DNA from: Corynebacterium felinum
GTDB lineage: Bacteria; Actinomycetota; Actinomycetes; Mycobacteriales; Mycobacteriaceae
Assembly (NCBI RefSeq): GCF_030408755.1
Contig: NZ_CP047209.1
Location: forward strand, 3,162,001-3,226,000
Direction: 5' to 3'
Length of the DNA stretch: 64,000 nt
The stretch's first letter is position 1; the number at the start of each line of letters is the position of its first letter. The position numbers and the translations under genes were made by a program. A model generated the notes under the pieces. It did no database searches. It saw nothing but the letters and a program-made list of their open reading frames with translations, and was not told the origin of the DNA. Shown piece by piece: positions 6,424 through 50,927 of the stretch.

Positions 6424-6445
6424 GCTTATCTAGTGTAGCCACATT

Positions 6446-6565: not shown

Positions 6566-6620
6566 TCTGCCTACGCTCCTGAAAAAATCAAGCGTTTGCG
6601 CAGGTCATCATAATTGTTTG

Positions 6621-6636: not shown

Positions 6637-6721
6637 ATAAAGAACAGTGCGCCCGCCACAACCGCTCACATTGCCTGCCTATGCTTTGCGCCGCCACCCC
6701 TTTCCGGAATCACAGCAGCGT

Positions 6722-7192
6722 CTAGTATTTGCTCAGTGATTCGATGAAAGCCATGATGAACAGGCCGAATATCAGCCAACCGATGAGTGCAAAAACCAGC
6801 GAAATTATTGCCCATGTTAAAGACTGGCGCGAGGCTCGCACAGAGTCATACTGCCTACCCATTTGCCACAGTTTGTCCACTTTCACAGAAAAGTACACAC
6901 TGACCAAGCCCAGAAACGGAAAACCAAAAATAGCACTGAGAACCGATAAAAGCATGTAATCTTTGGGTTTTGCTACTGATGCTTGCCCATACATAGAGGG
7001 CTGGGGATTATTTGCCAGATACTCAGGAAACACAGCAGCGGACTGATAGGGTTCAGCAGGATAACCGAGCGTATGTGCGCGGGGGTCGGAAAAATTTTGT
7101 GGTGTGCTCATCGCAGAATAGGGGTTGGCGCTATTCCATTGAGGGTGCGAGCTGGGGATGGCGGGATTGTGAAAGCCGTCGTTGTTGTTCAC
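6722..7192 (-). CDS. CD225/dispanin-like membrane protein
   Basis: A 156-residue protein starting at GTG with AGGAG nine bases upstream. Residues 1-75 are a Pro/Asn/Ser/Tyr-rich, probably disordered cytoplasmic arm. Two membrane segments follow (about 80-103 and 125-150). The loop between them, VYFSVKVDKLWQMGRQYDSVRASRQSLTW, carries the W-x2-G-x4-A-x2-AS-x3-W pattern of the CD225/dispanin (interferon-induced transmembrane protein) family. Bacterial members are common in Actinobacteria and have no settled function. It stands alone between the operator region and the leuS terminator. Confidence 0.72.
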   Translation of the reverse strand: MNNNDGFHNPAIPSSHPQWNSANPYSAMSTPQNFSDPRAHTLGYPAEPYQSAAVFPEYLANNPQPSMYGQASVAKPKDYMLLSVLSAIFGFPFLGLVSVYFSVKVDKLWQMGRQYDSVRASRQSLTWAIISLVFALIGWLIFGLFIMAFIESLSKY

Positions 7193-7353
7193 TAAGGCGT
7201 TCTCCTATCGTGAGGGAATTTAAGGTGCTATGCGTGCATAGTTTAATATTCTCCTTTTTGATGAACCCACAGTTTTTCTTAAATTTTTTGTGTGACTATC
7301 GCTGTGCGCAGGCGCTAAAACGGTGGCAAAGGATGGGGTGCACACAAAGCTGT

Positions 7354-7392
7354 GTACCCCTGTGCCCACCACAGGATGGGGCACAGGGGTAC
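7354..7392 (-). terminator. Strong hairpin after leuS
   Basis: Perfect 14-bp arms GTACCCCTGTGCCC and GGGCACAGGGGTAC enclose an 11-base loop just past the leuS stop. There is no clear T run on either side, so it may act as a transcript-stabilising end or a weak terminator. Confidence 0.55.
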
Positions 7393-7409
7393 GCAATGAG
7401 CAGTGGAGG

Positions 7410-13003: not shown

Positions 13004-14392
13004 ATGACATCGTCTTCACAGTCTTTGCCTCATCCGTCCGCCGCGGAAATCCATATGGATATTGCGCATGTGCGCTATTCGGCGGTTCAGGCGGATGTTG
13101 TTCATGATTTTTCCTTCCATCCTCGTCCTGGCAGTGTCACGTTGATTTGTGGGGCTAGTGGTAGTGGGAAGTCTTCTGTTCTTCGGTTGATTAATGGGTT
13201 GATTCCGCATTTTCACCAAGCCGAGGTTGAAGGCACAGTGACGGTGGGGAAGTTGGATGTGTCCACGATGGAGCTGTATCGCAGTGGTGAATTATGCGCA
13301 ACTGTGTTTCAGAATCCGCGCACTCAGTTTTTTACCACTGAGGTTGATTCCGAATTGGCGTTCGCGGGGCAGAATTTCCATGTTCCTGCTCAAGAAATTG
13401 CTAGGCGCAGTGCCATGGCATTGAACAGGATTGGTATTACTGAGTTGGCTGGGCGGAGTTTGCATCAGCTTTCTGGTGGCCAGTTGCAGAAAGTAGCCTG
13501 TGCGCAGGCCATGGCGCAATATACGCCGATTGTGTTGTTTGATGAACCCACGTCGAATCTTGACCCAGGGGCGATTGAGGATTTTTCCGCAGTGATTGCC
13601 GCGTTGAAGGAGGAAGGTAAGACGATTGTTATTGCTGAACATCGCCTATATTTCCTTCGTGCTTTGGTCGATGAGGTGCTGGTGTTAGATAACGGCACGG
13701 TCACGCACAGGTTTAGTGGCGAGGAGTTTTTCGGCCTCGATCAGTCCTTTGTTCATGAGCTGGGTTTGCGCCGTACGCTCCCGCCAACTCTTGAGGTTGA
13801 AGCAGATCACCCATCAGTTTCTGAGGTTTCTCCCAAGGATGCTGGGGTGGTTATTGAGTCCCTTCGGGTGAGCTTTGGCAAAACTCCGGTGCTCGATGTC
13901 GCTGGTGTGTTTTTTCCTTCAGGTGTGGTTACGGGTGTGGTGGGTCCTAATGGGGCGGGGAAGACCACGCTGGCGCGGGTGCTGGTGGGGGTGCAAAAAG
14001 CTGATCGCGGGTCGAAGATTAGTGGTGTGCGCTCTGCATTTTTGGTGATGCAGGATGTGCACCGCCAGTTGTTTGCCGAACGTGTGGATAAAGAAGCACC
14101 CATGGAGTTTCTTGTCCCGATGGGTTTGGATACTCTTGCTTCGCGCCACCCGTTGTCGCTTTCTGGGGGTCAAAAACAGCGCTTAGTGTGTGCCACTGCC
14201 ATGAGCATGAATGCGCAGGTGGTTATTTTTGACGAACCTACCTCAGGGGTGGATTACCGCCATCTTCAGAGCATTTCGCAATTGCTTCGCACTCTGGCTG
14301 AGCAGGGGAAGGTGGTGATTGTCATTAGCCACGACTATGAATTTCTCAACCATTGTGCAGACCGCATCGTGGAGCTCCAACCCCACGGTTAA
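13004..14392 (+). CDS. ECF transporter ATPase with two fused ABC domains
   Basis: A 462-residue protein made of two ABC ATPase domains. Domain one has Walker A GASGSGKSS (about 50-58), signature LSGGQLQK and Walker B IVLFDEPTSNLD. Domain two has Walker A GPNGAGKTT, signature LSGGQKQR and Walker B VVIFDEPTSGVD. All catalytic motifs look intact in both. It replaces the EcfA/EcfA' pair of other ECF systems and would power uptake through EcfT and the two MptD-type subunits. It is almost contiguous with ecfT and belongs to the same operon. Confidence 0.9.
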   Translation: MTSSSQSLPHPSAAEIHMDIAHVRYSAVQADVVHDFSFHPRPGSVTLICGASGSGKSSVLRLINGLIPHFHQAEVEGTVTVGKLDVSTMELYRSGELCATVFQNPRTQFFTTEVDSELAFAGQNFHVPAQEIARRSAMALNRIGITELAGRSLHQLSGGQLQKVACAQAMAQYTPIVLFDEPTSNLDPGAIEDFSAVIAALKEEGKTIVIAEHRLYFLRALVDEVLVLDNGTVTHRFSGEEFFGLDQSFVHELGLRRTLPPTLEVEADHPSVSEVSPKDAGVVIESLRVSFGKTPVLDVAGVFFPSGVVTGVVGPNGAGKTTLARVLVGVQKADRGSKISGVRSAFLVMQDVHRQLFAERVDKEAPMEFLVPMGLDTLASRHPLSLSGGQKQRLVCATAMSMNAQVVIFDEPTSGVDYRHLQSISQLLRTLAEQGKVVIVISHDYEFLNHCADRIVELQPHG

Positions 14393-14494
14393 ACGCCGCT
14401 GACGCGTGGCTTTGTGCTGTGCCACCTTTGCTTTAATTCGCGGGAACATTGCGACGCCCACAATAAAAAACACACATGTACGAAAGGTAACCTT

Positions 14495-14577
14495 ATGACT
14501 AGTGACCCTACTTCACACCTGAAGCTGCCGCCGGAACCGCCGGTGGACAAAGTTGAAAAGACCGTGCAGGAGCTTAA
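14495..14577 (+). pseudogene. 5' fragment of an ABC half-transporter gene cut by an insertion sequence
   Basis: ATG at 14495 follows GAAAGG and opens a frame reading MTSDPTSHLKLPPEPPVDKV... up to codon CTT at 14573. The frame then runs into the insertion sequence and stops at 14605. Removing the element together with one copy of its TTAA duplication joins this frame exactly to TTAAAGAAGAACGC at 16435, giving an uninterrupted 616-residue ABC transporter. So this is not a small peptide gene but the original start of the gene that resumes at 16439. The Pro-rich N-terminus is the usual cytoplasmic lead-in before the first membrane helix. Confidence 0.88.
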
Positions 14578-16434
14578 CCCGGATTTTTCATGGGGTGGGG
14601 CTTAAAAGGTGTGTAAAAAGTAAAGAAAGTGCTTCTTGACCTGCTAGAATAGAGATGTTGTTAAGCCTTTATTCCAAGCAGAAAAGGAGCACTTTCATGG
14701 TGAAGACTACTACATACACCCCTATGATGGCCAGCTGCACCCGTCTTGTTTCCCGCGCGGGGGTGTTACCCTTTGCTCATGTAGCTCAATTAGTCGGGAT
14801 TGGTGCCAGCCTTGATCGTGTTTTCTCACGGCAACGGTTAACACATACTTTTGGTGATGCGTGTACTGGGTTAGCGTTATCGTTAATTGCTGGTGGTGAC
14901 GATGTTAAAGACATCAACTTGTTAGATTCTGTTTCGACAGCATTATCGTCTCAGCCATTGCCGTCGGTATCAACCCTGTGGCGGCGACTGACAGAGCATA
15001 AAGACACCAGCGATAAAATACGTGAAGAATTCCTTCACGCGATCAAATACGCCCGTAGCACACTATGGAACCTGCTGGGCGATCAAGCCCCACATAAGCT
15101 CGCTACAGTAGACAAACCCCTGATAGTAGATATTGATGCGACACTGATCTGTGCGCATTCTGGCAAGGAAAAAGCCGCACCTACCTATAAGAAGGGGTTT
15201 GGTTTCCACCCATTATGTGCTTTTATCGACTACACCAGCGTAGGGTTAACTGGTGGGGAATTTTTAACCTGTCTGCTTCGCCCAGGTAACGCGGGAGCAA
15301 ACACCGCTAATGATCATTGCCAGCTTGTCAAAGAAATCCTGACCGCTCTCCCCGATCACAGCGATGGCAAACCTTGGGGCAAACGACTTGTTATCCGTGC
15401 TGACAGTGCTGGTGGGACAAAACAATTCCTTAGCTCCTTAGACGACCATGACCTCGGTTATGTTGTTGGCTTTTCACCCTCACCTACAGCAAGTATCCTC
15501 CTCAATGAGCACATCAGATCCGGTAACGAAGCAACTAGTCACACAGATTATCGATCATTACGTAACACCCGTGTGCCAATTGTGCGTGGCAATGGGGATA
15601 TCAGCTTTGATGACCAACACTTCCTTGAAGACATCACCGGACTACTACAAACCGCACACCTAGAAGATGACAAACCACTGGTGAACCTTCTTACTGATTA
15701 CCCCACCACGATGCGCGTGATCGCACGGATAGAATCCCCCCCACGCAGGGTGCCAACACAGCATTTTCAATCAACTCGGCATACGCACCCAATTATGCGC
15801 AACAAACCTCAACTGCAATATTCAACGCATTGACCAGTACTATCGCCAAAGATCACTATGCGAACAACACATCAAAGACGCCAAAGATCAAGGCCTTGCA
15901 AAACTACCGTTTTGCCAGTTCAAAGCTAACCAAATCTGGTGTCTCATCATAACCTTAGCCCACCAACTTCTCACCTGGACAAAACTACTCGACCATCACT
16001 ACAACAACCACAACAGCGGCAACAACAAGAAACGAAATCAATCCGACAACCCGTGGTGGACATGGGCACCAAAAACCATTCGAGCAAGGTTTATTGCAAT
16101 CTCTGCAAAAATCACGACAAGCAGCAGGCGCATATACCTCCACCTCGATCAACAAAGCACACACACCCCCACACTGGTGACACTTATGGAATACACCCAA
16201 AACCTCCTACGCCCCCTTAAAAAACGAAAAACCTAACCCCCTCAACCACAACACGCAGCAGACCCCACCACCGGCAGCCAACCGCAGGCACCCCACCACA
16301 AAACCCCACCACAAAAACACGGACGTACACCTTGCCATTGAAAACCACAACCAAAGGCGAAGGTGCCCCAACCAACCCCACAAACACACCACCCCAACCC
16401 ACCACCACCAAACCCACCCCATGAAAAATCTGGG
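14578..16434 (+). mobile_element. IS1380-family insertion sequence
   Basis: A 1857-bp element with terminal inverted repeats of about 22 bp and one mismatch: the left end begins CCCGGATTTTTCATGGGG and the right end, read inward, CCCAGATTTTTCATGGGG. It is flanked by the direct repeat TTAA at 14574-14577 and 16435-16438. Four-base target duplication and transposase type fit the IS1380 family. It carries one transposase gene, now frameshifted. The last 200 bp (16237-16434) are A/C-rich on the plus strand and non-coding. The element splits the first ABC half-transporter gene of the locus. Confidence 0.92.
14697..16236 (+). pseudogene. IS1380-family transposase, frameshifted
   Basis: The start is set by AAGGAG before ATG 14697. 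The N-terminal part (MVKTTTYTPMM...) includes the DDE-region pieces PLIVDIDATLICAHSGKEKAAPTYKKGFGFHP and RLVIRADSAGGTKQF, which contain the conserved acidic residues. At a run of seven C (15736-15742) the frame shifts; one fewer C would continue as PHAGCQHSIFNQLGIR and on to QHIKDAKDQGLAKLPF, the usual C-terminal IS1380 block, ending in TAA at 16234-16236. Restored length is about 513 residues. The shift could be real inactivation, slippage-based expression, or a homopolymer sequencing error. Confidence 0.88.
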
Positions 16435-16487
16435 TTAAAGAAGAACGCGCCCAAGGGCGAGCCGCGCTCCAGCACCTTCTTGGCCCG

Positions 16488-18206
16488 GTGGCGTGGCGCC
16501 TGCGCGTGGGCAAAGTTCTTGCTGGGTTGTCTGGGGTTTTGGCAATCGCTCCGTATATTGCGCTTGTCAAAATTGGTGAGCTACTTTTACAGGCATACAC
16601 CACCGATACCGCCGTCGATAGCGATGCTGTGTGGCGCTACGTGTTCTTGCTGATCAATACGTTCGCGGTGCGGTTGTTTGTGATTGGTTTAGCGCTCAGC
16701 GTCACCCATTTTGCGGACGTGAAAATTTCCACACTCATCCGAGAAATGACTCTTCACCGCTTATCCCATGCCCCCTTGGGGTGGTTTAGCAGCACGAATG
16801 CGGGTCGGATTCGGAAGGCGGTGCACGACGATATTGCGCAAATCCACACCCTGATTGCGCACCAGCCTGTTGATGTTATCCAGGCCATCATTACCCCACT
16901 TGCGCTGGTGGGTTTCGCGTTCACCATCGACTGGCGTTTGGGAATTCTCGCTGTTGCCGCCATTCCGATTTATCTGGGTGTCACAGCGCGGATGATGCGG
17001 GATATGGGTGAGAAAACAGTCGAAATGGATCTCCATTTAACACGTGTTTCGGCCACTATGGTGGAGTTTTTCACCGGCATCTCTGTGGTTAAAGCTTTCG
17101 GTACTGTCGGCAAGGCGCATAAGCGCTATCAGGATGCTGCGGATGGATTCTCCCAGTTCTACGAAGCGTGGGTGACTCCGATGCTGCGCGGTTCTTCCCT
17201 AGCTGGGGCGTCGATTGCGATTCCGGTGTTACTTGCGATCAATCTTGGCGGCGGGTCGTTGATGGTTGCGTCTGGGTGGGTCAGCCCCATCGATGTGCTG
17301 GCAACGACGCTTATTGCGTTGATGGTTCCGTCCTCGATTGAGGTTTTGGCGGGAATGGTGTGGGCATATCAGCTGGCGGGTGCAGCGGCGTTGCGTGTGA
17401 CTCAGGCGTTGGAAACACCGGTGCTACCGCAGTCGGATTCGGTGCAGAATCCGCAGGGGAATCGGGTGGTTTTTGATGCGGTGAGCTTTGCGTATGGGGA
17501 AACAGTAGCTGCTCGAGATGTGAGTTTTACGCTTGAAGAAAATACTGTGACCGCGCTTGTGGGCCCGTCGGGGTCGGGGAAGTCGACGATTGCGATGTTG
17601 TTGGCTAGGTTTAATGATCCTGATTCTGGTCGGATCACGATCGGTGGGGTTGATATTGCGTCTATGCCTACTCACCAGCTGTATCGCCAGGTTGCTTTTG
17701 TGTTGCAGGATCCGCAGCTGTGTCGGATGTCGGTGCGCGACAATATTGCGCTGGGTCGCCCCGATGCGTCCTTTGAGCAGGTTGTTGCTGCTGCCCGTAA
17801 GGCCCAGATTTATGAGGCGATTGCTGCGCTCCCGCAGGGTTTTGACACCATTGTGGGTCAGGAGACGAATTTCTCGTCGGGACAGGCGCAGCGTATCGCG
17901 ATTGCCCGCGCTTTGCTTATCGACGCCCCCATCCTCATCTTGGACGAAGCTACTGCTTTCGCCGACCCAGAGTCCGAGGCTGAAATTCAAAATGCCCTCT
18001 CATTGCTGGTTGAAGGTCGCACGGTGTTGGTGATTGCGCACCGTCCGGAGTCCATTGCGGGTGTGGATCGGATTATTATCCTCGACCAAGGGGAGGTCTC
18101 CGCCTGTGGTCGTCATGAAGATTTGTTGGATCATCCGCTGTATCGCAAGCTGTGGGCGTCGCGTCAGAGGCTCACCCCATCTGATGTCAACGAGGAGAAT
18201 TCTTAA
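16488..18206 (+). CDS. ABC half-transporter, YbtP/IrtA-like, 5' end lost to IS insertion
   Basis: 572 residues from the first usable GTG, although the coding frame is open from 16425 and originally began at 14495. It keeps the six-helix exporter-fold membrane domain (from GKVLAGLSGVLAIAPYIALV) and a full ATPase domain: Walker A GPSGSGKST, Q-loop FVLQDPQL, an odd signature FSSGQAQR and Walker B ILILDEATAFADPESE. The EATAFADPE sequence is typical of the YbtP/YbtQ and IrtA/IrtB type, which import ferric siderophores despite the exporter fold. No good ribosome site precedes the GTG, so expression after the insertion is doubtful. It runs straight into the next gene. Confidence 0.82.
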   Translation: MAWRLRVGKVLAGLSGVLAIAPYIALVKIGELLLQAYTTDTAVDSDAVWRYVFLLINTFAVRLFVIGLALSVTHFADVKISTLIREMTLHRLSHAPLGWFSSTNAGRIRKAVHDDIAQIHTLIAHQPVDVIQAIITPLALVGFAFTIDWRLGILAVAAIPIYLGVTARMMRDMGEKTVEMDLHLTRVSATMVEFFTGISVVKAFGTVGKAHKRYQDAADGFSQFYEAWVTPMLRGSSLAGASIAIPVLLAINLGGGSLMVASGWVSPIDVLATTLIALMVPSSIEVLAGMVWAYQLAGAAALRVTQALETPVLPQSDSVQNPQGNRVVFDAVSFAYGETVAARDVSFTLEENTVTALVGPSGSGKSTIAMLLARFNDPDSGRITIGGVDIASMPTHQLYRQVAFVLQDPQLCRMSVRDNIALGRPDASFEQVVAAARKAQIYEAIAALPQGFDTIVGQETNFSSGQAQRIAIARALLIDAPILILDEATAFADPESEAEIQNALSLLVEGRTVLVIAHRPESIAGVDRIIILDQGEVSACGRHEDLLDHPLYRKLWASRQRLTPSDVNEENS

Positions 18207-19958
18207 ATGAAACCGCTATTGTTTTCGTTGCTGCCAATGTGTAAAAACATGCTGTCGCGGCCTGAGTTGATTACAAAGGCCATGTGGATGTCCATTGTGA
18301 TGGGTATTGCCGAGGCCATGTCGCTATTTTTACTGGTTCCCGCAATTACTGCGCTGTCCACCCAAGAAAATGTGTGGGGGCTCAGTATCCAGGCGTGGGT
18401 GTATTGCGCGATTGTTTTGGGTGTGTGTTCTGGCGTGTTTGGGTATTTCCAATTTCGTCATGGCTACGACACCGCCATGGATATGGTCAAAAACATTCAC
18501 CGGAAGTTGGGCGATCAGATAGCGAAACTTCCCCTCGGCTGGTTCCATCAGGCCAAGGCTGGGCAGATTTCGCGCATGGTATCCTCCGAACTGCTGATGG
18601 TGGGGGAAGTTATCGCCCACCTGTTTTCCCCAATGATTAGTCGGATCACTGTCACCGTGGTGATCATGGTACTCACTTTGATCTGGGACTATCGTTTAGG
18701 GCTGATCTTGGTGGTGTCCACCCCTATTTATCTGCTGTTCCTTTCCGCATCCGGCGCTTTGAGCCGGAAGGGCAAGAATATCGCGGAGCCGCGTGAACGC
18801 GAGCTTTCCGACCGTATTGTGGAATTTACCCATAACCAGGCCACGTTGCGTTCGTGTGGGTTAAGTACGCACTATCCGCCTTTAGTTCAGGCTAACAAGC
18901 AGTGGCGCAAGGCCAAGTCTAAGGAGCTGTGGTTTGAGATTGCAGGCAATATTGTCGGTGGTGTGCTCACCCAGATCGTGGTGATTTCGCTGATTATTGT
19001 TGCAGCTCGGCTGGCCATTACCGGCAGCTTAGATCCTCTTGTGACTGTAGCCTATATCGGTTTGGCACTGCGCTATGCCCAGGTGTTGATGGCGCTCACG
19101 GAAGCCTCGGTGGGGTTGGAAACACGTCGCCCACTGTTAGAAGCTATCAATGAGATCCTTGATGCCTGCCCGTTGCCGGAGCCGGTAAACTCAGTGCCTA
19201 TGCCTACTCCTGGCACGGTGGAATTGGTGGATGTGTGCTTTGGGTACCAGCCGGATAAACCCGTTTTACGCAATGTGAGTTTTACTGCTGGTGCGCATCA
19301 AATGGTGGCGCTGGTGGGTCCCTCGGGCTGTGGCAAAACAACTGTTGCCAGGCTCATTAGTCGTTTCTACGAGGTCGATTCCGGCTGCGTGAAGGTCGGT
19401 GGGGTCGATGTTCGGGAATTAACCAGTAGTGATTTGATGCGGCAGTTATCCATGGTGTTCCAGGATGTGTACCTGTTTGACGATACGTTGCGTAACAACA
19501 TCATGATTGGTAATCCACAGGCAACGGAGGATGAGATTTATGAGGCTGCGCGTCTCGCTGGGGTCAGTGAGATTGTAGCGAGGTTGCCGCAGGGCTGGAA
19601 CACCCCAGTGGGCGAGGGCGGAAAGAGTTTGAGCGGTGGCGAGCGGCAACGTGTTGCGATTGCGCGCGCTTTGCTCAAACAAGCCCCGATTGTGCTTCTC
19701 GACGAGGCGACCAGCGCCCTGGATCCGGAAAATGAAGCGAACGTGGTGGCCGCCGTCGATAAGCTTCGCGAGCATGCCACTATCATTGTGATTGCACACA
19801 AACTACACACCATTGCACAGGCCGATCTCATTGTTTCGCTGAGTGCTGAGGGCACTGTGGAAGATGTGGGAACCCACGAAGATTTGTTTTCACGGGGTGG
19901 TACGTATCGTAGTTTCTGGGATAAACGTTCCCAAGCGCAAGGTTGGCGACTAACCTAA
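18207..19958 (+). CDS. ABC half-transporter, YbtQ/IrtB-like
   Basis: A 583-residue partner of the preceding half-transporter, beginning directly after its stop codon. Six membrane helices (about residues 20-300) precede an ATPase domain with Walker A GPSGCGKTT, signature LSGGERQR, Walker B IVLLDEATSALD and the H-loop VIAHKLH. All motifs are canonical, unlike the FSSGQ signature of the partner, so the pair probably forms an asymmetric heterodimer. Context (iron boxes, ECF genes, TetR regulator) suggests import of an iron chelate. Export of a peptide or drug is the main alternative. Because the partner gene is broken, this subunit may now lack its mate. Confidence 0.85.
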   Translation: MKPLLFSLLPMCKNMLSRPELITKAMWMSIVMGIAEAMSLFLLVPAITALSTQENVWGLSIQAWVYCAIVLGVCSGVFGYFQFRHGYDTAMDMVKNIHRKLGDQIAKLPLGWFHQAKAGQISRMVSSELLMVGEVIAHLFSPMISRITVTVVIMVLTLIWDYRLGLILVVSTPIYLLFLSASGALSRKGKNIAEPRERELSDRIVEFTHNQATLRSCGLSTHYPPLVQANKQWRKAKSKELWFEIAGNIVGGVLTQIVVISLIIVAARLAITGSLDPLVTVAYIGLALRYAQVLMALTEASVGLETRRPLLEAINEILDACPLPEPVNSVPMPTPGTVELVDVCFGYQPDKPVLRNVSFTAGAHQMVALVGPSGCGKTTVARLISRFYEVDSGCVKVGGVDVRELTSSDLMRQLSMVFQDVYLFDDTLRNNIMIGNPQATEDEIYEAARLAGVSEIVARLPQGWNTPVGEGGKSLSGGERQRVAIARALLKQAPIVLLDEATSALDPENEANVVAAVDKLREHATIIVIAHKLHTIAQADLIVSLSAEGTVEDVGTHEDLFSRGGTYRSFWDKRSQAQGWRLT

Positions 19959-28694: not shown

Positions 28695-28710
28695 TGTTTC
28701 ACGTGAAACA
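28695..28710. other. parS site 1 (ParB binding)
   Basis: TGTTTCACGTGAAACA, inside a perfect 32-bp palindrome (28687-28718). Intergenic between the HtaA-type gene and DUF1846. Confidence 0.95.
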
Positions 28711-31564: not shown

Positions 31565-31910
31565 CCTGCTGCCATCGCCCCTTTTTCAGTCACTTTCTTA
31601 GCTCCATCACCTCCTAAGATATCCATTCCCCCACAAGAGTTAAGGAAGTGACTGAAAAGGGGCGATCGTTTTTACTCACTGAAAACCATCACATTTCAAT
31701 TGTGAACAATTGACTTAAGAAGTCTAGCACCTTCTAGTCAGCGTCAACTTTGAATCACACATTGAGGCTTAACATTAGAGCAAACCGCGTTAAACACTGA
31801 CCTTTATTTATGAGCTTTGCTCCCTACAGTGACGCATTTTTCCATGTCCGCCAGCCCCTCGCTCAGTTAGACAATGTCCATCACCTGTGTGCCGACAACG
31901 TAGAAATTTC
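31565..31910. other. Intergenic region before the ankyrin pseudogene
   Basis: About 350 bp that hold the long-stem terminator in the first third. The rest is moderately AT-rich with no supported reading frame or recognisable site. Confidence 0.4.
31574..31673 (+). terminator. Long-stem terminator after the stalked surface protein gene
   Basis: ATCGCCCC-TTTTT-CAGTCACTT (from 31574) pairs with AAGTGACTG-AAAA-GGGGCGAT (ending about 31666) and is followed by GTTTTT. The loop between the arms is unusually long, about 50 bases. Confidence 0.75.
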
Positions 31911-32946
31911 ATGATTCCTTGGGATTTTGAAAATGCTGCAATGGCGCTGCCTATAAACTCTGTGTCCAGGACTCACCACTTATTTAAAGCAGCCAGCGCG
32001 GGAGACTGTGAGAAAATTCAACGTCGGTTGGCTTAAGGGGAAACCCTGGATTATCGGCATAAAGGCACAGGGCGTACCAGTTTGGCAGAAGCGGTGATCA
32101 ATGGACATTAGCAAACCGTTGAACTTTTGTTAGATAGTGGAGCAGATATTGATGCATCGTGCACCGCACTCGGTTACACCGGAGTGATGTGGGCAGTTGA
32201 AAAAAGAAACTACCATTCTTCAAACCCTCATTGGACGAGGTACGGACGTCAATCGCGTTTCTTCGCATGAATTTTTGGTCACAGTGCCGCAATTCTTACT
32301 GCTAGTAGTGGCATAATCGAAGCCTCGAAGATTCTCATTAAAGCAGGTACTGACCTATCTTATCGTGATAGGCGGGGATATAATACGATGCAGGAGACCA
32401 TCGAAAAGGGCAAAGACAACTGTCGTGTCTTCTTAGAATCTGTGAATGCGCCAGCACCCTTAAAGAAAACAGAAGACCAACCTTTGCTTTGGCCGGAACT
32501 ATCATGGGATCCAACAGCGCTTAAACCGATTTGCCCGTTGCCTGAAGGGCTAAGCCACGAACAGGTGGTGTGGAGTTACATTCAGTCGCGCTATCACTGG
32601 GAGAAGGAAGCAAACAAACGCCTCAATGAGGAAAATTCCAACTTTGATCGTGAGCTGGAATTAGGCGTAGACATTGCCATGCTCCACCTCACGGACAAGA
32701 AGCGTGCGAGTCTTGGTGGAGCGATCGGGTGGCCGCCTAAATTTTCTCCTGGCTATGAACTTTTGGGGGTGTCGCAGGTGAAGCCGTCACGAATTGAAAT
32801 CCATGTAAAACATCCACAGCCAACTAACTTCAACAAGGAGTACCAGTGGATTTTTGTGTGTCTGAAAAAGCGGTCAGTGGCGTATTGACTCTGGAAAGAA
32901 AAGTCTCAGTGGAGCCACTCAGTACACTTCCGGATACCTTGCCTAA
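31911..32946 (+). pseudogene. Decayed ankyrin-repeat protein gene
   Basis: From ATG 31911 the frame reads FKAASAGDCEKIQRRL, then an in-frame TAA, then LDYRHKGTGRTSLAEAVINGH with a TAG, then QTVELLLDSGADIDASC. These are ankyrin repeats. Frameshifts follow (around 32205 and 32265), after which ASSGIIEASKILIKAGTDLSYRDRRGYNTMQETI resumes the repeats. The last part (32388-32888) is open and codes for a C-terminal domain I do not recognise (WPELSWDPTALKPICPLPEG...). A further shift near 32865 would extend it as SGQWRIDSGKKSLSG to a stop at 32944. Two stops and at least two or three shifts show decay. Such proteins are often immunity or effector-linked. Confidence 0.82.
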
Positions 32947-32977
32947 CCTTCTGTAACCTTTAATCCTTCGACAACAC

Positions 32978-33032
32978 AAAACCCCCGCTGCCTTGCCTGT
33001 GGAAAATTCATTTCTCACTGGGGGAGCGGGGG
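32978..33032 (-). terminator. Terminator of the dicarboxylate symporter gene
   Basis: On the minus strand CCCCCGCTCCCCC pairs with GGCAGCGGGGG and is followed by TTTTGTG. It lies about 60 bp past the symporter stop, with parS site 2 in between. Confidence 0.65.
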
Positions 33033-33044
33033 ATTCTTTAGTGA

Positions 33045-33060
33045 TGTTTCACGTGAAACA
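33045..33060. other. parS site 2 (ParB binding)
   Basis: TGTTTCACGTGAAACA, within a 20-bp palindrome GATG...CATC. It lies between the symporter stop and its terminator. Confidence 0.95.
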
Positions 33061-33091
33061 TCGCAACGGTGTGATGCCGACGTCGATACGC

Positions 33092-40524: not shown

Positions 40525-41989
40525 TTCATCTACGCAGTCGGCACTGCCAACCATCCTTGAAGAGATTGTGGCCACCCGTCGCACACACTTGGACGATATT
40601 CGCGATCGGATTGCTCACGTCGATCCGGCGACGCTTCCGCTCTCCGAACGCAGTTTGGAAAAAGGACTTGCCCAGCGGGGGAGGGGAGGGGCTGCGTTCA
40701 TCATGGAGTGCAAGTCCGCTTCACCGTCCCTTGGTCTTATTCGCAGTGAGTATAACCCTGGCGCGATTGCCAGGATCTACTCCCGCTTCGCCGTGGGCAT
40801 TTCCGTGCTGTGTGAGCCTGCCCGCTTCGGCGGGGATTATGATCACCTTTCTACTGTGGCTGCTTCCACTCATCTTCCGGTGTTGTGTAAGGATTTCATC
40901 ATCGACGAATGCCAGATTATAGCTGCCCGCTATTTCGGGGCGGATGCGATTTTGCTGATGCTCAGCATTCTCAGCGACGAGCAGTACCGGCATTTGGCGG
41001 CTGTGGCGGCTCGCTATAATCTCGATATTCTCACCGAGGTTATCGACGAAGAGGAAGTCGTGCGGGCGCAGAAACTTGGTGCGCGTATCTTCGGTGTGAA
41101 TCATCGGAATCTTCACGATCTCAGCATCGACTTGTCCCGCTCCGCTGCTCTTGCCGCACTAATTGGCGACGACGCGATCCTCGTTGCGGAATCTGGGATT
41201 CGGGACAATCACACCGTACGCACACTTAGCGCTCACGCCAACGGTTTCTTGGTGGGTTCGCAACTAACAAGCCAACCCGATGTTGATCTCGCTGCCCGCA
41301 GGTTGGTGTACGGCGCGAACAAAGTCTGCGGCATCACTTCGCCTGAAGTCGCCCAGGGTGTTCGCAGCATGGGTGCGGTCTACGGCGGGCTGATTTTTGA
41401 AGAGAAAAGTCCGCGCAATGTTTCACGTGAAACCGCGCAAAAAATCATCCACGCCGAACCTGATCTGCACTACGTGGCAGTATCGCGTCGGACCGAGAAC
41501 TTCCACGAGCTCGCAATGCCTGGCATCCACGCGGTTCAAATTCACGCGCCTTTATGCGCCAGTATCGAGGAGGAATTGAAGCTTATCGACGCCGCCCGCC
41601 GCGACCTTGATCGTGCCGGTTTCCCCGACATCCACCTGTGGCGTGCTATCTCCATGACCAAACCCAACGGACCTTTCATTGCCCAGCAACTTGTTGGGCG
41701 CGTCGATACGCTTGTGCTCGACGCGGGGGAGGGCGGCAGCGGCGAAACCTTCGACTGGACGCTCATCCCGGATGAAATAAAACAGCACTCCTTCATCGCC
41801 GGTGGCTTAAACCTCGACAACCTTGATGAAGCACTAGCAGTGGGCGCGTACGGCCTCGACCTGAACTCCGGCGTGGAGTACCCGGATCATTCCCACCGCC
41901 ATCACACGAAAGATCTCGGATTGGTGGCTCGCGCCTTTGCCCGCATCCGTTCCTTCCACTACACCCCATCAAAGAAAACAGGAGCCTAA
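40511..41989 (+). CDS. trpCF: Bifunctional indole-3-glycerol phosphate synthase / phosphoribosylanthranilate isomerase
   Basis: A 492-residue fusion of two TIM barrels performing two successive steps. The first half (about 1-255) has IMECKSASPSLGLIR, VLCKDFIIDECQI, LTEVIDEEEV, GVNHRNLHDL and VAESGIRD of TrpC. The second half has KVCGITSPEVAQ, VQIHAPL, LDAGEGGSGETFDW and GLNLDNLDEAL of TrpF. Fusion in this order is as in enteric bacteria and corynebacteria. ATG 40496 is an alternative start. A full parS core lies inside the frame at 41420-41433 and codes for NVSRET near the start of the TrpF half. Confidence 0.95.
   Translation: MAPTNSSTQSALPTILEEIVATRRTHLDDIRDRIAHVDPATLPLSERSLEKGLAQRGRGGAAFIMECKSASPSLGLIRSEYNPGAIARIYSRFAVGISVLCEPARFGGDYDHLSTVAASTHLPVLCKDFIIDECQIIAARYFGADAILLMLSILSDEQYRHLAAVAARYNLDILTEVIDEEEVVRAQKLGARIFGVNHRNLHDLSIDLSRSAALAALIGDDAILVAESGIRDNHTVRTLSAHANGFLVGSQLTSQPDVDLAARRLVYGANKVCGITSPEVAQGVRSMGAVYGGLIFEEKSPRNVSRETAQKIIHAEPDLHYVAVSRRTENFHELAMPGIHAVQIHAPLCASIEEELKLIDAARRDLDRAGFPDIHLWRAISMTKPNGPFIAQQLVGRVDTLVLDAGEGGSGETFDWTLIPDEIKQHSFIAGGLNLDNLDEALAVGAYGLDLNSGVEYPDHSHRHHTKDLGLVARAFARIRSFHYTPSKKTGA
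41420..41433. other. parS site 3 (ParB binding) inside trpCF
   Basis: GTTTCACGTGAAAC; the outer T is kept on the left (41419) but the right flank is C instead of A. It is the only site of the nine inside a reading frame. Confidence 0.9.
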
Positions 41990-43262: not shown

Positions 43263-44111
43263 ATGTCGCTTCATTCTTCTTCTCGTTATTCCGCCATGTT
43301 CACTCGCCTCGCTGGGGCAGGGGAGGGGGCGTTCGTCCCCTTCGTCATGTTGGGTGATCCCACCCCGGCTGATTCGCTTGCGATTGTGCGCACTCTTGTT
43401 GCTGCGGGCGCGGATGCGCTTGAACTTGGTGTCCCTTTCTCCGACCCGGTTGCTGACGGTCCGACGATTCAGCGCTCTCACATTCGTGCGCTCGCCGCGG
43501 GCGCAACAGTGGATTCTTCACTCTCCCTCATCCGGAAGATTCGTGAGGAGTTCCCTGATCTTCCATTGGGCTTGTTGATTTACGGCAACGTTCCGTTCAC
43601 CCGCGGCTTGGATCGTTTCTATCAAGAGTTTTCCGACGCCGGTGCCGATTCCATTCTCATCCCTGATGTTCCCGTGCGTGAGGGGCAACCGTTTATTGCG
43701 GCTGCGAAGAAGGCGGGCATCGCCCCAATTTTTATCGCCCCGGCCCAGGCGGCGGAAGCAACTCTCGCCGGTGTTGCTCGCCATTCGGAGGGTTATATTT
43801 ATGCGATTTCCCGCGATGGCGTCACTGGTGTTGAGCGTGAGTCTCAGACAACTGGTTTGCGCGAGGTTGTCGACAACATTAAGCGTTTCGACGGCGCCCC
43901 CGTGTTGCTTGGTTTCGGTATCTCCACCCCGCGCCATGTTGCCGACGCGATTGCCGCCGGTGCCGACGGCGCTATCACCGGCTCCGCTATCACCGCGATC
44001 ATTGAGCGCCATTGCCCAGACTCCCTTCCCACCGCAGTCACCGATTCCGCCTCGCTTCACGCGGAACTGACTGAATTCCTCACCGCCATGAAAGCTGCAA
44101 CCACACGCTAA
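43263..44111 (+). CDS. trpA: Tryptophan synthase alpha chain
   Basis: A 282-residue TIM barrel that cleaves indole-3-glycerol phosphate to indole and passes it to TrpB. Catalytic Glu lies in GADALELGVPFSDPVADGPTIQ and catalytic Asp in ILIPDVPVREG. YIYAISRDGVTG and LLGFGISTPRHV form the phosphate end. ATG 43263 is chosen although the frame is open further upstream as a shadow of trpB; ATG 43296 is possible. It ends the operon. Confidence 0.95.
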   Translation: MSLHSSSRYSAMFTRLAGAGEGAFVPFVMLGDPTPADSLAIVRTLVAAGADALELGVPFSDPVADGPTIQRSHIRALAAGATVDSSLSLIRKIREEFPDLPLGLLIYGNVPFTRGLDRFYQEFSDAGADSILIPDVPVREGQPFIAAAKKAGIAPIFIAPAQAAEATLAGVARHSEGYIYAISRDGVTGVERESQTTGLREVVDNIKRFDGAPVLLGFGISTPRHVADAIAAGADGAITGSAITAIIERHCPDSLPTAVTDSASLHAELTEFLTAMKAATTR

Positions 44112-44132
44112 TCTGTGGCTCCATCCCTTCCC

Positions 44133-44165
44133 AGCCCCGCCCACTTATACCTGTGGTGCGGGGCT
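44133..44165 (+). terminator. Terminator-like hairpin after trpA
   Basis: AGCCCCGC..CAC pairs with GTGG.GCGGGGCT around a short loop. parS site 4 follows four bases later, so there is no long T run. Confidence 0.65.
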
Positions 44166-44168
44166 GAG

Positions 44169-44184
44169 TGTTTCACGTGAAACA
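44169..44184. other. parS site 4 (ParB binding)
   Basis: TGTTTCACGTGAAACA directly after the trpA hairpin, at the left edge of the gene desert. Confidence 0.95.
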
Positions 44185-44665
44185 TTGCTAAAAAGTCCCT
44201 AGATAAATTTCTCTCCCACCTCGGTGGGGTAGGGGAGGGGTTTGACCTCGCATGTAGGCTCACCAGCACTAAACCCATCACCCATAACAGGCCACGCGTA
44301 CCACACAATCCACGCCCGCGCTTACAGCGCCCCACACCTAAATCTCACCGCAAGCATCCCTCCGCCAGCACCCACTACAGCACCTATTTCTTCCACTGCC
44401 GCCTTCCGGAATCACAGTCCAGTCTCCTTAAAGCAACAGCCCCTCCTGATCCCATAACACGAAGTTTCCAATGCGTTCCGCTTCGCGAACATCCGAAGCA
44501 CCCGTGAACAACCTCCGCACAATCACCGCATCAAAAACCACAACCCACTTCGCTTCAGCACCCACGATCTCTTCATCCACACCGCTCATCCAACCCCCAG
44601 AAGCACTTACTCTCGATCTCATTCTTGCCTGCGCCAGCATATCCATCGGCACTAATTTTCTAGTG

Positions 44666-44681
44666 TTTCACGTGAAACATT
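44666..44681. other. parS site 5 (ParB binding)
   Basis: TGTTTCACGTGAAACA within the gene desert, about 500 bp from site 4. Confidence 0.95.
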
Positions 44682-45727
44682 TCCATAGTTTCGACTCAAA
44701 CCTGCGCATGGTGAATTGACACGTTGATCGACATATCCACCTACCCTTCATTAGACACCCCTCCCATACCACCGCACCTCGGCCCCATGACTTATCCGCA
44801 GAATTCGGTTTCCTCTATGCAAGCCCCAATTTATCCCTGAAATGAAAGGCGTTTCTTCAGCCCACTTTGTGCCCCAGATTGTGGAAACACTTCATACCCG
44901 ACCTCGGGCGCGTACCGCATCTTCAACTTCCGCGCCGGTATTCCACTCCCTATTCAACACCACCATCTGTGCATCGCATGCCCTCGTTTTCCACTATTCC
45001 TTCGAAAATTTCCAAAGCGGCAGTCCCACCACAATTCCCCTCAAACTCCGAACCGCCGTGTGCTTCACCCACCAATGTCGACTTCCCGGATTGCGTCTTC
45101 ATGCATTCATGAAACACTCTTATTCGCCCTCAACATTACCGACGCACACCTACTCAGTAACGGAGAAAATTTCAAAGAACGGCCAACGTTTAGGGCTCTT
45201 TTCGGCGCAGAGTTACCCTACGAAAAATCGGCTCTCAAAATTTATGGTTCATCATTCATCCTTATCCACACCTCGCTCGAAACGAGGATTATCAATACTC
45301 CCGGAAAGAATGACGGACTACTTGGCGCTTGTTCCACATGCCTCCGGCCATCCCACAACACCAAAAACCAATCCGCTCTAGTGATGAATGGGCACGCGTT
45401 CTTGTTTTATCCGTTGGCATTGCACCCACTAACCCATCTTTGTCGTTCTAGGACCGCTAGGAAGCGAGCGATTCAACCCGTCTTCATGACCTTTGTGCGC
45501 TCACTTCATGTTGTTTTCTTACTACTGCCTCAACACCTATCCGCCAGTCCCGACCAACGGCTTAGGCTCGTGCTGCACCAGTGAAGTTCTTTACGATGGG
45601 ACTTGCGCAGGTTTCTTTCTTTTGTTCCCACCCCCAAATGAGAATGATCCACGAGTCAATCAATGACGGGATAGGGGAGTGTTCGTTGGCAATCATTAGG
45701 TGTCGATAGTCCGCGCCCATCGTTCAA

Positions 45728-45743
45728 TGTTTCACGTGAAACA
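45728..45743. other. parS site 6 (ParB binding)
   Basis: TGTTTCACGTGAAACA within the gene desert, flanked as CAATG...CAATG. Confidence 0.95.
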
Positions 45744-46351
45744 ATGATTTCACCACTTTAGGCCGACCTCATAATCGCGCTCCGTTTCTTTCAGCAACAA
45801 CCCCAAGGAAAACAGTGCGTTTGGATCTAGATGCACTGTCCTTTTTTCTCGCGCTTCAGATCGCTGCTATTCAGTGGAAGGTCGAGACTCGTACACACTT
45901 CACTTTAAATTCGGATACCGTTGCGACAGTGCCGTCCTTCTCGTTCCTCCCTCAGGTCCCAATTGTCTCCAGCGCTCATCTTGGCCCAGTACTGAACCTC
46001 GAAGAACACTCGTATTTCACCAACTCGTGCGCGCTAGTTTTAGTATCTACCGATAAAGATTTACCGCCTATGCAGGGTTCAGAAACTAAAGTGTCTCACC
46101 CTTTAATCCACCTCAGGATAAAGCTGTAGGCTCACAAACTTCCCACTCCAATCTGCACGCGCTTTCTTTGTCGAGGAGTTTGTGCATCGGCGGTATCTGT
46201 ATCCTTCGCACTCTTTGGCTCAGGTGGGACGCGAACCCTATGTTTTCCAGACACATCTTTTCCGCGCAACGTGTGCTTTTTTGTTGGTTTGAATCTTGAG
46301 GACTTTCATCAGTGCAACAGGCTAGGTCAACATTGTGCACTTTTAGGGCAG

Positions 46352-46367
46352 TGTTTCACGTGAAACA
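46352..46367. other. parS site 7 (ParB binding)
   Basis: TGTTTCACGTGAAACA within the gene desert, near the point where base skew changes. Confidence 0.95.
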
Positions 46368-47124
46368 TTCACCCTACTAATTGTCTTGTTTTCGGCAGTG
46401 GCGACTGCCGGATAGCTTCCAACGACACCAAAGTCCCCTGAAGTTCTTGAAGTAAAGCGCGGTAGTGGGTTTTGCCACCTTGTTGAGAACATTACGATCT
46501 CAATTTCGACATGGCGATATCCGCTGCTTTGATACACGGTTTCATCGTTGGATGGCGGTGTTGGGCATTGGAGCAAAACCACGCAACAGCCCACGACAGA
46601 TTTTTAATAGCGTCACCTTCACTGTTTCCTTTTCCACTCAATAAGTAGGAGTACTCACAACAGGGGTGCAATTGATTTTAATGGAATCGTCGTCTTCCTT
46701 AGGGTTTAAAAAATCCTTGCGCATAGTTATGCTTCGGGGGTTTAGTCCTGGCTGGAATCCTAATCCACCACAATAGAAATCTCGTTTGAGGGGCTAAAGT
46801 ATGCTACGTATGCAGCTTCTACAAAGTTCAACGCAACGGGGTGGTCTTTGAAGGAGACGTCCGAAAGCGATTAAGTGAACCCAATGGACGCACACTCTTG
46901 ACACTTAATTGTCGACGATAGGAGGTATGTTTTTTAGTGACTTTGTTCTTCGGAAGGCAACGCCAACCAACAAACAGGAGGGGCTCCGTTTCACGATTAG
47001 CGCTCATATACCAGCCGAAAACCGTTGCTAGGCATTCTTCTCAACCCGCCTCGTCATCTTCATACAAGCAGTTGGGGCTTCCTGATTGCGCAGACGATGC
47101 GGTTTCTGCGCGATCGTTTTTCTA

Positions 47125-47140
47125 TGTTTCACGTGAAACA
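47125..47140. other. parS site 8 (ParB binding)
   Basis: TGTTTCACGTGAAACA inside a 24-bp perfect palindrome (47121-47144, TCTA...TAGA), in the right part of the gene desert. Confidence 0.95.
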
Positions 47141-47859
47141 TAGACACGAGAGCCCATGCCAAAAAGCGCAACCTGGCATAACCAAACTCAATGTGCGATG
47201 CCTCAAGTTCTAGGATCGGGGCTAGGTGAGGGTTAAAAAATGCACCGAGCTCGTGCCACAGCGATGGCGGGGAATGGTTCATTGAAACTTCGCCTTGGAG
47301 TACAAGAATTGAAATTGCGGCAGTGCAGGCATCTCAAGGATAGGGGTGAAGAAGAAAATTGGGGCTAGAAGAATGCACTGACGAAAGCAGAACTGGGTTT
47401 AGAAGAAAACATAATAGTGTGCGTGCTAGGTAAAACAGTGGCGCTAATTTTGTTGTTCGAGGAATTGATGGGGGATTAGAGGTTGGGGCACGCCACATTC
47501 GTGTCAGTGAGAGAACGTGGGCGAGTGATAAAAGGAGGGGTGAAAACCCGAAAAAACAACTATGAGGGGTGAAGTTGGCACGGGTACACAAAGTTATCTT
47601 ATTTACATCACTGTGACGATAATTGTGACGCTGGCAGATGGTTGCCGGGGAGGGGAGTGAGACCTATTGAAGGCGTCTTGTGAGAGTCAGGCACTCAAGC
47701 TATCGCCAACACACCACCCGCGCCGAGGGAGATAGGAACTCTTTGAGCCGGGCGGTCGGTGACAATGAAGTGCGGTAGGTTGAGGCGTCGAAAAGCAGGA
47801 AAGCTCAAAAACAACCCCTAGTTATATTCAATTGCCAGCAATGTAAGTAAAGGGGGAGG

Positions 47860-48966
47860 TTAGCGCCACTCACCGCGATGATAGCTCGGCGCAACCGGCC
47901 AATCCGAACGATCCAAACTCAACGCATGAGCAGCACGCACCGGCCACGCAGCATCGAACAAGGCAGCGCGGCCAACATTAATCAGATCCGCCTTCCCCTC
48001 ATCCAACACCTGCTGAGCCAGCGCAGGATCACCCAGCTGACCAACAGCCGCAACCGGAACCGACACATGCTTTTTAATCGCCGCAGCGAAAGGAACCTGA
48101 TAACCAGGACCTGTCACAATTGGGGCAGGTGCCACACCACCAGACGACACATCAATAAGATCAACGCCCCGCGCCGCTAAATCCTGACACAACTGCACCG
48201 AATCAGCCACCGACCATGCATCCACGGAAGAATCATCGTCAAACCAGTCCGTGGCCGACAAACGCACGCTTACGGGATAATCCGGACCGACTGCTTCACG
48301 CACAGCGTCAACCACCTCATGCACGAGGCGAGTGCGGTTTGCGAAACTGCCACCATAGTCATCATCGCGCTGGTTTGATAGCGGGGAGAAGAATTGGTGC
48401 AGCAAATAACCGTGCGCCGCATGGATTTGCACCAAATCGAAGCCGGCAGCGACACTGCGCGCCGCGGCTTGGGCGAACAGAACCGGAATCTGCTGGATCT
48501 CCTCACGTGTCATCGCACAAGGGGTACGCAGCTTCGGAAACGCCACAGGGCTAGGTGCAGAAGTTTCCCAACCACCATCAGCAATGGGCACAGAGCCAGG
48601 GCTAAAGCCTGGCAGCATGGGGAAGGTTGAGGCTTTACGCCCCGCATGGATCAGCTGAATGCCCATTGCGCTGCCCTGGCTGTGAACACAATCGACGATT
48701 CTGCGCCACGCCTGGGCCTGTTCATCCGTCCACATACCCGCGCACAGCGGCGAGATCCGACCCTCAGGGCAGATCGCACTCGCCTCAGCCACGATCAGGC
48801 CGAAGCCACCGGCAGCGCGGGCACCGTAGTGCTGGAGGTGCCAATCAGTGACCATGCCGTCGCGGCCGATTGCCTGATATTGGCACATCGGTGGAAGCAC
48901 GATGCGGTTACGGAGCTGAAGACCACGCAATGAAAAAGGTTGGAAAAGGGAAGGGATTGTTGTCAT
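47860..48966 (-). CDS. NADH:flavin oxidoreductase of the Old Yellow Enzyme family (YqjM-like)
   Basis: A 368-residue FMN-dependent ene-reductase that reduces activated C=C bonds with NAD(P)H. LRNRIVLPPMCQY carries the Cys of the YqjM-type redox switch. HAGRKAS binds substrate and FMN, and VQIHAAHGYLLHQFFSPLSNQRDDDYGGSFANRTRL is the family block with the active His pair. VGRAALFDAAWPVRAA forms the phosphate end. The frame opens at TTG 48975, but ATG 48966 is the more likely start. It is monocistronic at the right edge of the gene desert. Physiological substrate unknown. Confidence 0.92.
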   Translation of the reverse strand: MTTIPSLFQPFSLRGLQLRNRIVLPPMCQYQAIGRDGMVTDWHLQHYGARAAGGFGLIVAEASAICPEGRISPLCAGMWTDEQAQAWRRIVDCVHSQGSAMGIQLIHAGRKASTFPMLPGFSPGSVPIADGGWETSAPSPVAFPKLRTPCAMTREEIQQIPVLFAQAAARSVAAGFDLVQIHAAHGYLLHQFFSPLSNQRDDDYGGSFANRTRLVHEVVDAVREAVGPDYPVSVRLSATDWFDDDSSVDAWSVADSVQLCQDLAARGVDLIDVSSGGVAPAPIVTGPGYQVPFAAAIKKHVSVPVAAVGQLGDPALAQQVLDEGKADLINVGRAALFDAAWPVRAAHALSLDRSDWPVAPSYHRGEWR

Positions 48967-49100
48967 ACCGCACAAGCTTAATCGTTGGAGCAGAGCAATC
49001 GCTGCCCTTTTTCCACAACTCAGCGCACATGCGGGAATCTTCGTGGCGCACAGATGGGGGTAATGGAGTTTGTGGGGCTGAAAGTGCGATACTGGAAACC

Positions 49101-49535
49101 ATGACTACCCAAAATTTCCCCCATCCCACCGATCCTGAGCACGCTAGTAGCCCACGCGCAACTGGCGCGGGGCAGGTGAAGTGTAGCCGCCGGATGTTCT
49201 TGCTGGGCACCGCGACTACTTTTGCTGGGATTGCCCTTACAGCCTGCGGTAAAGACCCTGTCGAGTTGAGCATTGCCGATGTCCCTGTTGGTAGCGCGGT
49301 GATTGTCGATGGTGTGATCCTGGCCCAACCGGTGGCAGGTGAGTACAAGGCGTATTCCACGGTGTGTCCGCACCAGAATTCGCAGATCAGTCAGGTTGAT
49401 GGTGATATTGTGCGCTGCCCGACGCACAATTCGGAGTTTTCGATTGTTGATGGTGCTGTGATCAGCGGACCTGCCCGCGACCCGATGAAGCCACTGAATG
49501 TGGCGGTTTCGGGCGAGACCGCAACGGTCGGCTAG
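49101..49535 (+). CDS. Rieske [2Fe-2S] lipoprotein, Tat-type signal
   Basis: A 144-residue protein. The N-terminal CSRRMFLLGTATTFAGIALTACG combines a twin-Arg motif with a lipobox Cys (C49), so it is probably exported folded and lipid-anchored. The Rieske ligands C89/H91 (CPHQ) and C106/H109 (CPTH) are present, within VCPHQNSQI and CPTHNSEF. The domain is the small single-cluster type (about 90 residues) found as an electron carrier of unknown partner in Actinobacteria, not the cytochrome bc1 subunit. The start at 49101 is chosen because the longer frame (48870) overlaps the divergent gene and adds no leader features. Confidence 0.88.
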   Translation: MTTQNFPHPTDPEHASSPRATGAGQVKCSRRMFLLGTATTFAGIALTACGKDPVELSIADVPVGSAVIVDGVILAQPVAGEYKAYSTVCPHQNSQISQVDGDIVRCPTHNSEFSIVDGAVISGPARDPMKPLNVAVSGETATVG

Positions 49536-50911: not shown

Positions 50912-50927
50912 TGTTTCACGTGAAACA
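50912..50927. other. parS site 9 (ParB binding) in a 38-bp perfect palindrome
   Basis: TGTTTCACGTGAAACA at the centre of a palindrome from 50901 to 50938 (outer arm CACAAGGCGAA on the left, TTCGCCTTGTG on the right). It lies between convergent genes. As RNA it would be a long stem with no loop, so it may also act as a terminator for both. Confidence 0.95.

Follow-up and report, generated by a model that had tools for sequence, protein, structure and literature searches.

A gene-free interval with five parS sites beside trpA in Corynebacterium felinum and its counterparts in two other Corynebacterium species

In a 64,000-nucleotide stretch of the Corynebacterium felinum chromosome (contig NZ_CP047209.1, positions 3,162,001 to 3,226,000; hereafter the window), an interval of 3748 bp between the convergent genes trpA and that of an old yellow enzyme (OYE) has no recognisable genes and carries five exact 16-bp copies of parS, the site of the partition protein ParB. 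On balance we favour the reading that this interval, referred to below as the desert, serves the chromosome's own ParABS centromere as an enlarged segment for ParB loading. The desert is expanded with respect to the equivalent gap of nearly all relatives compared, gene-free clusters of parS recur in two other species of the genus (here G165 and G181), and parS sites across the genus avoid divergent gaps.

The desert and its parS sites

The sequence TGTTTCACGTGAAACA is found without mismatch at five places in the desert (Table 1), at spacings of 495, 1064, 624 and 773 bp, in agreement with an earlier sequence-only reading of this DNA that had reported five exact sites 0.5-1.1 kb apart. That reading had also counted four more sites outside the desert; those at 28695, 33045 and 50912 are indeed exact, whereas the one at 41419 has one mismatch in the 16-mer with an exact 14-bp core. 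Over the whole 64 kb, nine matches to the parS consensus with at most three mismatches were found against 0.36 expected in shuffled sequence, and the desert has no degenerate cores with one or two mismatches, as is also the case for the desert of G181. The complete genome (one contig of 3,236,025 bp) holds ten exact 14-bp parS cores, all located between 3,190,696 and 3,232,870, that is, within 42 kb near the end of the record, base 1 of which we take to lie at oriC by the usual convention. The desert sites are thus half of the sole parS cluster of the genome; the tenth core lies beyond the window, 2.2 kb from parB, and one single-mismatch copy is found elsewhere, at 455,141. One parB (TIGR00180; 3,230,139-3,230,675) and one smc (TIGR02168) score over their family cut-offs in this genome, and both genes are also present in G165 and G181. 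The exact sites, their share of the only cluster, the presence of parB and smc and the gene-free clusters in two other species give good sequence support to the earlier proposal of a candidate centromere zone.

The desert contains 15 open reading frames (ORFs) of at least 60 amino acids, and 13 of them score negative over their whole length under a codon model that had been trained on the remainder of the window, with −30 and −20 bits for those of 179 and 174 codons. The two positive ones are 45815-46129(+), at +5.1 bits, and 44428-44652(-), at +4.4 bits, the last 54 codons of which (44428-44589) reach +12.5 bits. Pfam gave nothing credible for any of the 15 ORFs (two chance-level matches, E 0.31 and 0.099), no Rfam family was found in the desert at its gathering score (one sub-threshold match, E 0.21), no tandem repeats were found, and the BLAST likenesses within the desert, up to 34 bp long, all include a parS core. 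A tblastn search with 2524 proteins, taken from the loci of 92 relatives, the sampled own genome, G165 and G181, gave no match to the desert, its own ORFs being excluded from the count; in a control, gaps with missed ORFs were detected, with those ORFs as the best match. The claim that the stretch lacks any credible gene is borne out by the codon model, Pfam, Rfam, tblastn and the tandem-repeat search, and neither the 2524 proteins nor Pfam revealed a conserved protein in its frames. The accompanying description of the rest of the window as tightly packed was a little strong, since called gaps of 1.5-2.1 kb exist there, yet these hold ORFs of 157-393 amino acids. Across about 454 kb sampled from the own genome (20 stretches and the window, minus a 10-kb overlap), one called gap exceeds 3748 bp and corresponds to an rRNA operon, and another of 3509 bp holds a 350-amino-acid ORF and a group II intron match. 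Gene calls were made with our own codon model and homology rescue instead of a standard caller; the calling cuts the desert at 44589 through the doubtful 54-codon call, leaving a gap of 3270 bp with four of the five parS sites.

The sequence-only reading had offered, as one alternative, that the desert is a graveyard, left by the decay of genes that were lost through a clash with ParB. The slightly coding-like 54-codon piece and a local rearrangement of a neighbouring Rieske-domain gene (see below) could be taken in its favour, but a pseudogene island should hold recognisable remnants, and tblastn found none with any of the 2524 proteins, nor did the desert ORFs give a credible Pfam match. When 201 genomes were searched with the desert DNA, matches outside the own genome were found in 13, and the 14 matches listed are only 26-57 bp long. 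For the small ORF that contains the 54-codon piece, the only matches were a protein on a contig exactly as long as this genome (3,236,025 bp) and a cluster of 53 amino acids (four contigs, the longest of 3,236,053 bp, 28 bp more). We therefore regard a graveyard as highly improbable, although the interval has indeed been rearranged.

It is equally improbable, in our judgement, that the real content of the desert is a hidden gene, in the form of the 179-codon ORF 44842-45381(+), or an unannotated RNA. The ORF has a single database match, a predicted metagenomic protein of 178 amino acids on a 31-kb contig that is identical at 120 of 157 positions without a gap, and in a simulation of neutral change only about 16% of copies at that divergence keep the 179-codon frame open, both of which would favour a gene. 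Against this, its codon score is strongly negative and its replacements look neutral, since 12 of 37 are positive-scoring where the simulation gives 9.3-9.7 if neutral. In the same database the OYE cluster nearest to the OYE of the window has 98% identity and the next 63%; if the metagenomic relative belongs to the 98% cluster, as we infer, the ORF changes far faster than the neighbouring OYE. Among the DNA matches listed from the 200 other genomes none lies over the ORF, and the Rfam result speaks against a known RNA. We interpret the metagenomic protein as falsely called from the same stretch of DNA in a relative, and the presence of the stretch there would also speak against an assembly artefact of a single genome.

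Table 1. Coordinates of the desert, the parS sites and the neighbouring features, numbered from the first letter of the window.
Feature	Position	Strand	Remark
Gene-free interval between convergent trpA and OYE, 3748 bp	44112..47859	.	G+C 0.495
parS site 1 of the desert, 57 bp beyond the trpA stop	44169..44184	+
parS site 2 of the desert	44664..44679	+
parS site 3 of the desert	45728..45743	+
parS site 4 of the desert	46352..46367	+
parS site 5 of the desert	47125..47140	+
parS core inside trpCF, one 16-mer mismatch	41419..41434	+
parS in a 93-bp convergent gap between a small ORF (no Pfam family) and the yqgE/DUF179 gene	50912..50927	+
Outlying parS	28695..28710	+
Outlying parS in the called gap 31565-33091, which has a 167-amino-acid ORF	33045..33060	+
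trpA, reads into the desert	43263..44111	+	Pfam Trp_syntA
OYE gene, reads into the desert from the opposite side	47860..48966	-	Pfam Oxidored_FMN
Rieske-domain gene	49101..49535	+
GC-rich inverted repeat between trpA and parS site 1, 9-bp arms, 17-nt loop, no T run	44132..44166	+	by eye
Terminator-like stem-loop about 70 bp past parS site 3, 12 pairs then a T run	45812..45839	+	terminator scan

The inverted repeat next to trpA fell outside the terminator scan, in which loops were limited to 8 nucleotides, and the scan returned six candidates in total against 4.8 by chance, which is not above chance. The sense strand is C-rich past both convergent genes (44112-45200 and 47200-47860, ranks 4 and 7 of 81 gene ends). 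Termination of the Rho type at both edges of the desert was considered and dropped, as the two-sided C-rich pattern is absent in G165 and G181. Elsewhere in the window, long frames with a codon use unlike the rest are found at 14655-15833, 32388-32888 and 6722-7192, and are perhaps acquired genes or false frames. One sampled stretch of the own genome (L264) holds two complete rRNA operons (4525-9742 and 14072-19282) on the same strand within 15 kb.

Gene order and parS positions across the genus

In order to compare the interval across Corynebacterium, TrpA was located in 197 of 201 genomes and 95 loci, those of 94 relatives and the own one, were examined over 6 to 80 kb around trpA; these were chosen mostly from the better TrpA matches. 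A common order in the 27 loci that were laid out is trpA(+), Rieske(+), OYE(-), an SBF-like transporter(+), a small gene(+) and yqgE(-), with several loci lacking OYE and some having other genes in between. In the laid-out relatives that have all three genes the Rieske gene lies between trpA and OYE, whereas in the window it lies beyond OYE (order swapped over 47860-49535), which indicates a rearrangement of the interval. Relatives have about 390-720 bp between trpA and OYE, but this distance includes the Rieske gene and was for this reason not kept as a short intergenic gap, the gap at the 3' end of OYE being used as the baseline; likewise, the window site at +557 was not taken as the same site as those at +553 and +562 in relatives, given the Rieske gene in their spacing. 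Among 35 other loci that have OYE, its 3' gap ranges from −19 to 628 bp and contains one parS in 11 cases, as against 3748 bp in the window; it is otherwise enlarged only in G165, where it is 3807 bp long and holds 25 exact parS sites. The gap between the small gene and yqgE, which is 93 bp with one parS in the window, is 3.1 kb with 20 exact sites in G165.

The 3' end of trpA, next to which the desert of the window lies, is a frequent place for parS. A site is found within 250 bp of the end of the trpA match in 39 of the 95 loci, and one is found inside trpCF in 88 of 95. Among the 1283 gaps of the 95 loci, only five exceed 2.5 kb; four of them hold 9, 25, 20 and (in the window, as called) 4 parS sites, and the fifth a 323-amino-acid ORF.

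We also analysed the orientation of the genes around parS in 92 loci, leaving out the three desert species, adding homology-supported genes and setting the expectation by gap length. The 174 exact sites in gaps fall 40 times in convergent gaps against 18.2 expected, 9 times in divergent gaps against 39.7, and 125 times in tandem gaps against 116.2. Sites shared by descent are not independent, and orthologous gaps were therefore collapsed for the test; with the resulting 252 gap types, divergent gaps have 6 against 13.4 expected (P=0.0013). The same merged test on the first gene set, without homology rescue, gave 8 against 15.4 for divergent and 20 against 15.2 for convergent gaps. Across the genus, parS sites avoid divergent gaps, that is, those containing promoters.

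Gene-free parS clusters in G165 and G181

The G165 genome (loci L179 and L180) has two gene-free arrays, at G165:C1 2712190-2716000 with 25 exact parS sites and at 2706300-2709400 with 20. Within the 80 kb read, the 45 exact cores and a further 13 with one mismatch all lie in these two deserts, and the 45 are all the exact sites of the genome. The two arrays are mutually related, as 74% of the second aligns to the first with 71-100% identity in 45 alignments; they consist of diverged repeats common to both, and nothing similar is found in the rest of the 80 kb. The count of 45 exact sites is the highest among the 201 genomes, the next being 18 and 12. The second-highest belongs to the draft genome G032 (C4, C7 and C34), where the 18 sites are mostly kilobases apart and not in a desert. 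Close pairs of parS, with 20-50 bp between them, occur nine times in G165. There are at most two in each of the other genomes of the genus, from a set of 242, and in each of 397 genomes drawn from the order (G165 was not drawn). Exact parS triplets with a start-to-start distance of 27 bp, forming a regular mini-array, were seen in G357, G389, G407 and G419, which belong to one other genus of the same family.

In the more distant species G181, trpA and a convergent gene are separated by a desert of 4183 bp with nine parS sites, whose ORFs of at least 70 amino acids all have negative whole-ORF codon scores. Matches between the deserts of the window and G165, and between those of G165 and G181, are at most 77 bp long and all but one include a parS core, and no match was found between those of the window and G181 at E 0.001. 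In a tree of TrpB, TrpA and TrpCF from 95 genomes (a single FastTree run, midpoint-rooted), the genome of the window (G000) groups with G026 and G136 (support 0.951), and these three with G100, G032 and G165 (0.919), whereas G181 lies far off, beside G120 and G160. For the near relatives G026, G136, G032, G100, G120 and G160, the longest gap within the stretch compared measures 636 to 1039 bp. The deserts of the different species share little beyond parS and look independently acquired, with three separate gains as the simplest reading, although repeated loss may account for the distribution instead.

Proposed mechanism, alternatives and significance

In C. glutamicum, chromatin immunoprecipitation places ParB at all ten parS sites with three spreading zones, and SMC loading depends on ParB (PMC7083940). 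By analogy, ParB clamps would load at the five parS sites of the desert and slide into the adjoining DNA, as established for the same motif in C. glutamicum, SMC would be loaded from the same ParB complex, and no other stretch of the chromosome would load ParB as densely as the desert. The segment may have grown beside the 3' end of trpA, a frequent place for parS in the genus, facing a convergent gene, with parS sites being added as the spacer lengthened. Because the site lies between two convergent genes, growth there would bury neither a promoter nor the start of either gene and would interrupt no coding sequence, and would for this reason have been tolerated or favoured. The occurrence of five exact 16-mers amid DNA that is otherwise not conserved is consistent with this, and the fact that two other Corynebacterium lineages show a similar result suggests that a larger amount of ParB-loading DNA near the origin was selected for. 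In C. felinum itself, the binding of ParB and the loading of SMC at the desert are predictions, as is any advantage of its having no genes.

Several observations weigh against this reading. In the merged orientation test the convergent excess is only marginal (14 against 9.8 expected, P=0.055), and 186 of the 366 exact sites in the loci of the 92 relatives lie wholly inside genes (179 are in gaps or on an edge, and one is past the outermost gene), which means that parS does not require gene-free DNA. The three species differ in how their deserts are built, with long repeats in G165, likeness around parS of up to 74 bp at 73% in G181 and of up to 34 bp in the window. Both trpA and OYE read into the desert, head-on to outgoing SMC, and head-on transcription has been reported to interfere with SMC (PMC5583512). 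One parS site suffices in C. glutamicum (PMC7083940), and in single-molecule work in vitro RNA polymerase passes ParB clusters while both keep working (PMC10681803). The proposal of the sequence-only reading that transcription is kept out of the zone to let ParB spread is possible: the avoidance of divergent gaps agrees with it, whereas the sites inside genes, among them that in trpCF, the coexistence of RNA polymerase and ParB and the head-on flanks do not. We consider it possible that the gene-free state helps ParB or SMC.

The motif TANANT was used as a −10 motif in order to examine promoter content. It occurs 11 times in the desert against 19.2 expected (ratio 0.57), with ratios of 0.58 in coding DNA and 0.73 in other convergent gaps of the genome; the desert of G181 has 3 against 8.8, and the arrays of G165, with 20 against 21.4 and 10 against 16.4, are less clear. 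A purge of promoters from the desert was rejected, because the motif is equally scarce in the coding DNA and scarce in the other convergent gaps too, and no special depletion is claimed.

The coexistence of RNA polymerase and ParB, the flanks facing the desert and −10-like motifs that are no scarcer than in coding DNA make neutral growth of the spacer the main and a serious rival, although we think it rather unlikely. Here, parS would be under selection, while the spacer grew by drift, rearrangement or duplication in a harmless 3'-to-3' gap, the gene-free state having no function of its own. The displaced Rieske gene would fit such a history, as would the G+C content of the desert, which equals that of the other intergenic DNA of the genome (0.494), the TANANT ratios and the neutral pattern of replacement in the longest desert ORF. 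Neutral growth alone, however, does not explain why the number of parS sites rises with the deserts (5, 9, 20 and 25), nor why four of the only five gaps over 2.5 kb are parS clusters. We thus continue to favour an enlarged ParB-loading segment.

Beyond the single locus, it is quite possible, if short of probable, that regional centromeres have arisen several times independently in some lineages of Corynebacterium. These would take the form of multi-kilobase gene-free segments packed with parS (5, 9, 25 and 20 exact sites), lying between convergent genes and at or close to the position of a single parS in relatives, with one species having satellite-like diverged repeats at two loci that hold all of its 45 exact sites.

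Plasmid centromeres with iterated binding sites carry multiple partition-protein sites in a short non-coding segment; unlike them, the desert is chromosomal, has canonical parS at irregular spacing and lies beside housekeeping genes. Myxococcus xanthus belongs to another phylum. Its 3-kb cluster of 22 parS repeats near parAB, as described in PMC3899335 and PMC3778016, is the closest known dense chromosomal array that we found and is comparable to the arrays of G165 (25 sites in 3.8 kb and 20 in 3.1 kb), although its parS consensus is a different one; the desert of the window, with only five sites in 3.7 kb, is not a dense array of this kind (about 20 or more sites in about 3 kb). The genome of the window resembles C. 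glutamicum in having a single cluster of ten parS sites, which spans 42 kb as against 35 kb in C. glutamicum and, with base 1 taken as oriC, likewise lies to one side of oriC, and in having one site inside trpCF; it differs in that the accessible text on C. glutamicum describes sites 2-10 only as intergenic and mentions no multi-kilobase gene-free stretch with five sites, and in that ParB occupancy was measured there and is predicted here (PMC7083940). Streptomyces coelicolor and Listeria innocua have many origin-proximal parS sites, up to 20-23 according to a review (PMC7333895), as against 45 exact sites in two gene-free arrays in G165 and ten sites in the genome of the window.

Clustered chromosomal parS sites are already known, and the comparative result on the deserts is new: among the papers listed by searches of the open-licence literature, no report was seen of gene-free parS deserts in corynebacteria, or of 45 sites in one corynebacterium. 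On its own the desert of the window is a sparse example, and its interest comes from being one of three. The same review poses as questions why the number of parS sites varies when one is often enough, and what drives their clustering (PMC7333895). Related species with up to 45 sites, which at matching positions sit either in gaps tens of bases long or in 3-4 kb deserts, make the number and clustering of parS testable within one genus that has a good model organism. The deserts would represent centromere expansion in a bacterium, should they prove to load more ParB or SMC; otherwise they would be a clean example of the growth of a spacer around a selected motif. Repeated evolution of regional centromeres, if true, would be a counterpart of the eukaryotic transition from point centromeres to regional ones.

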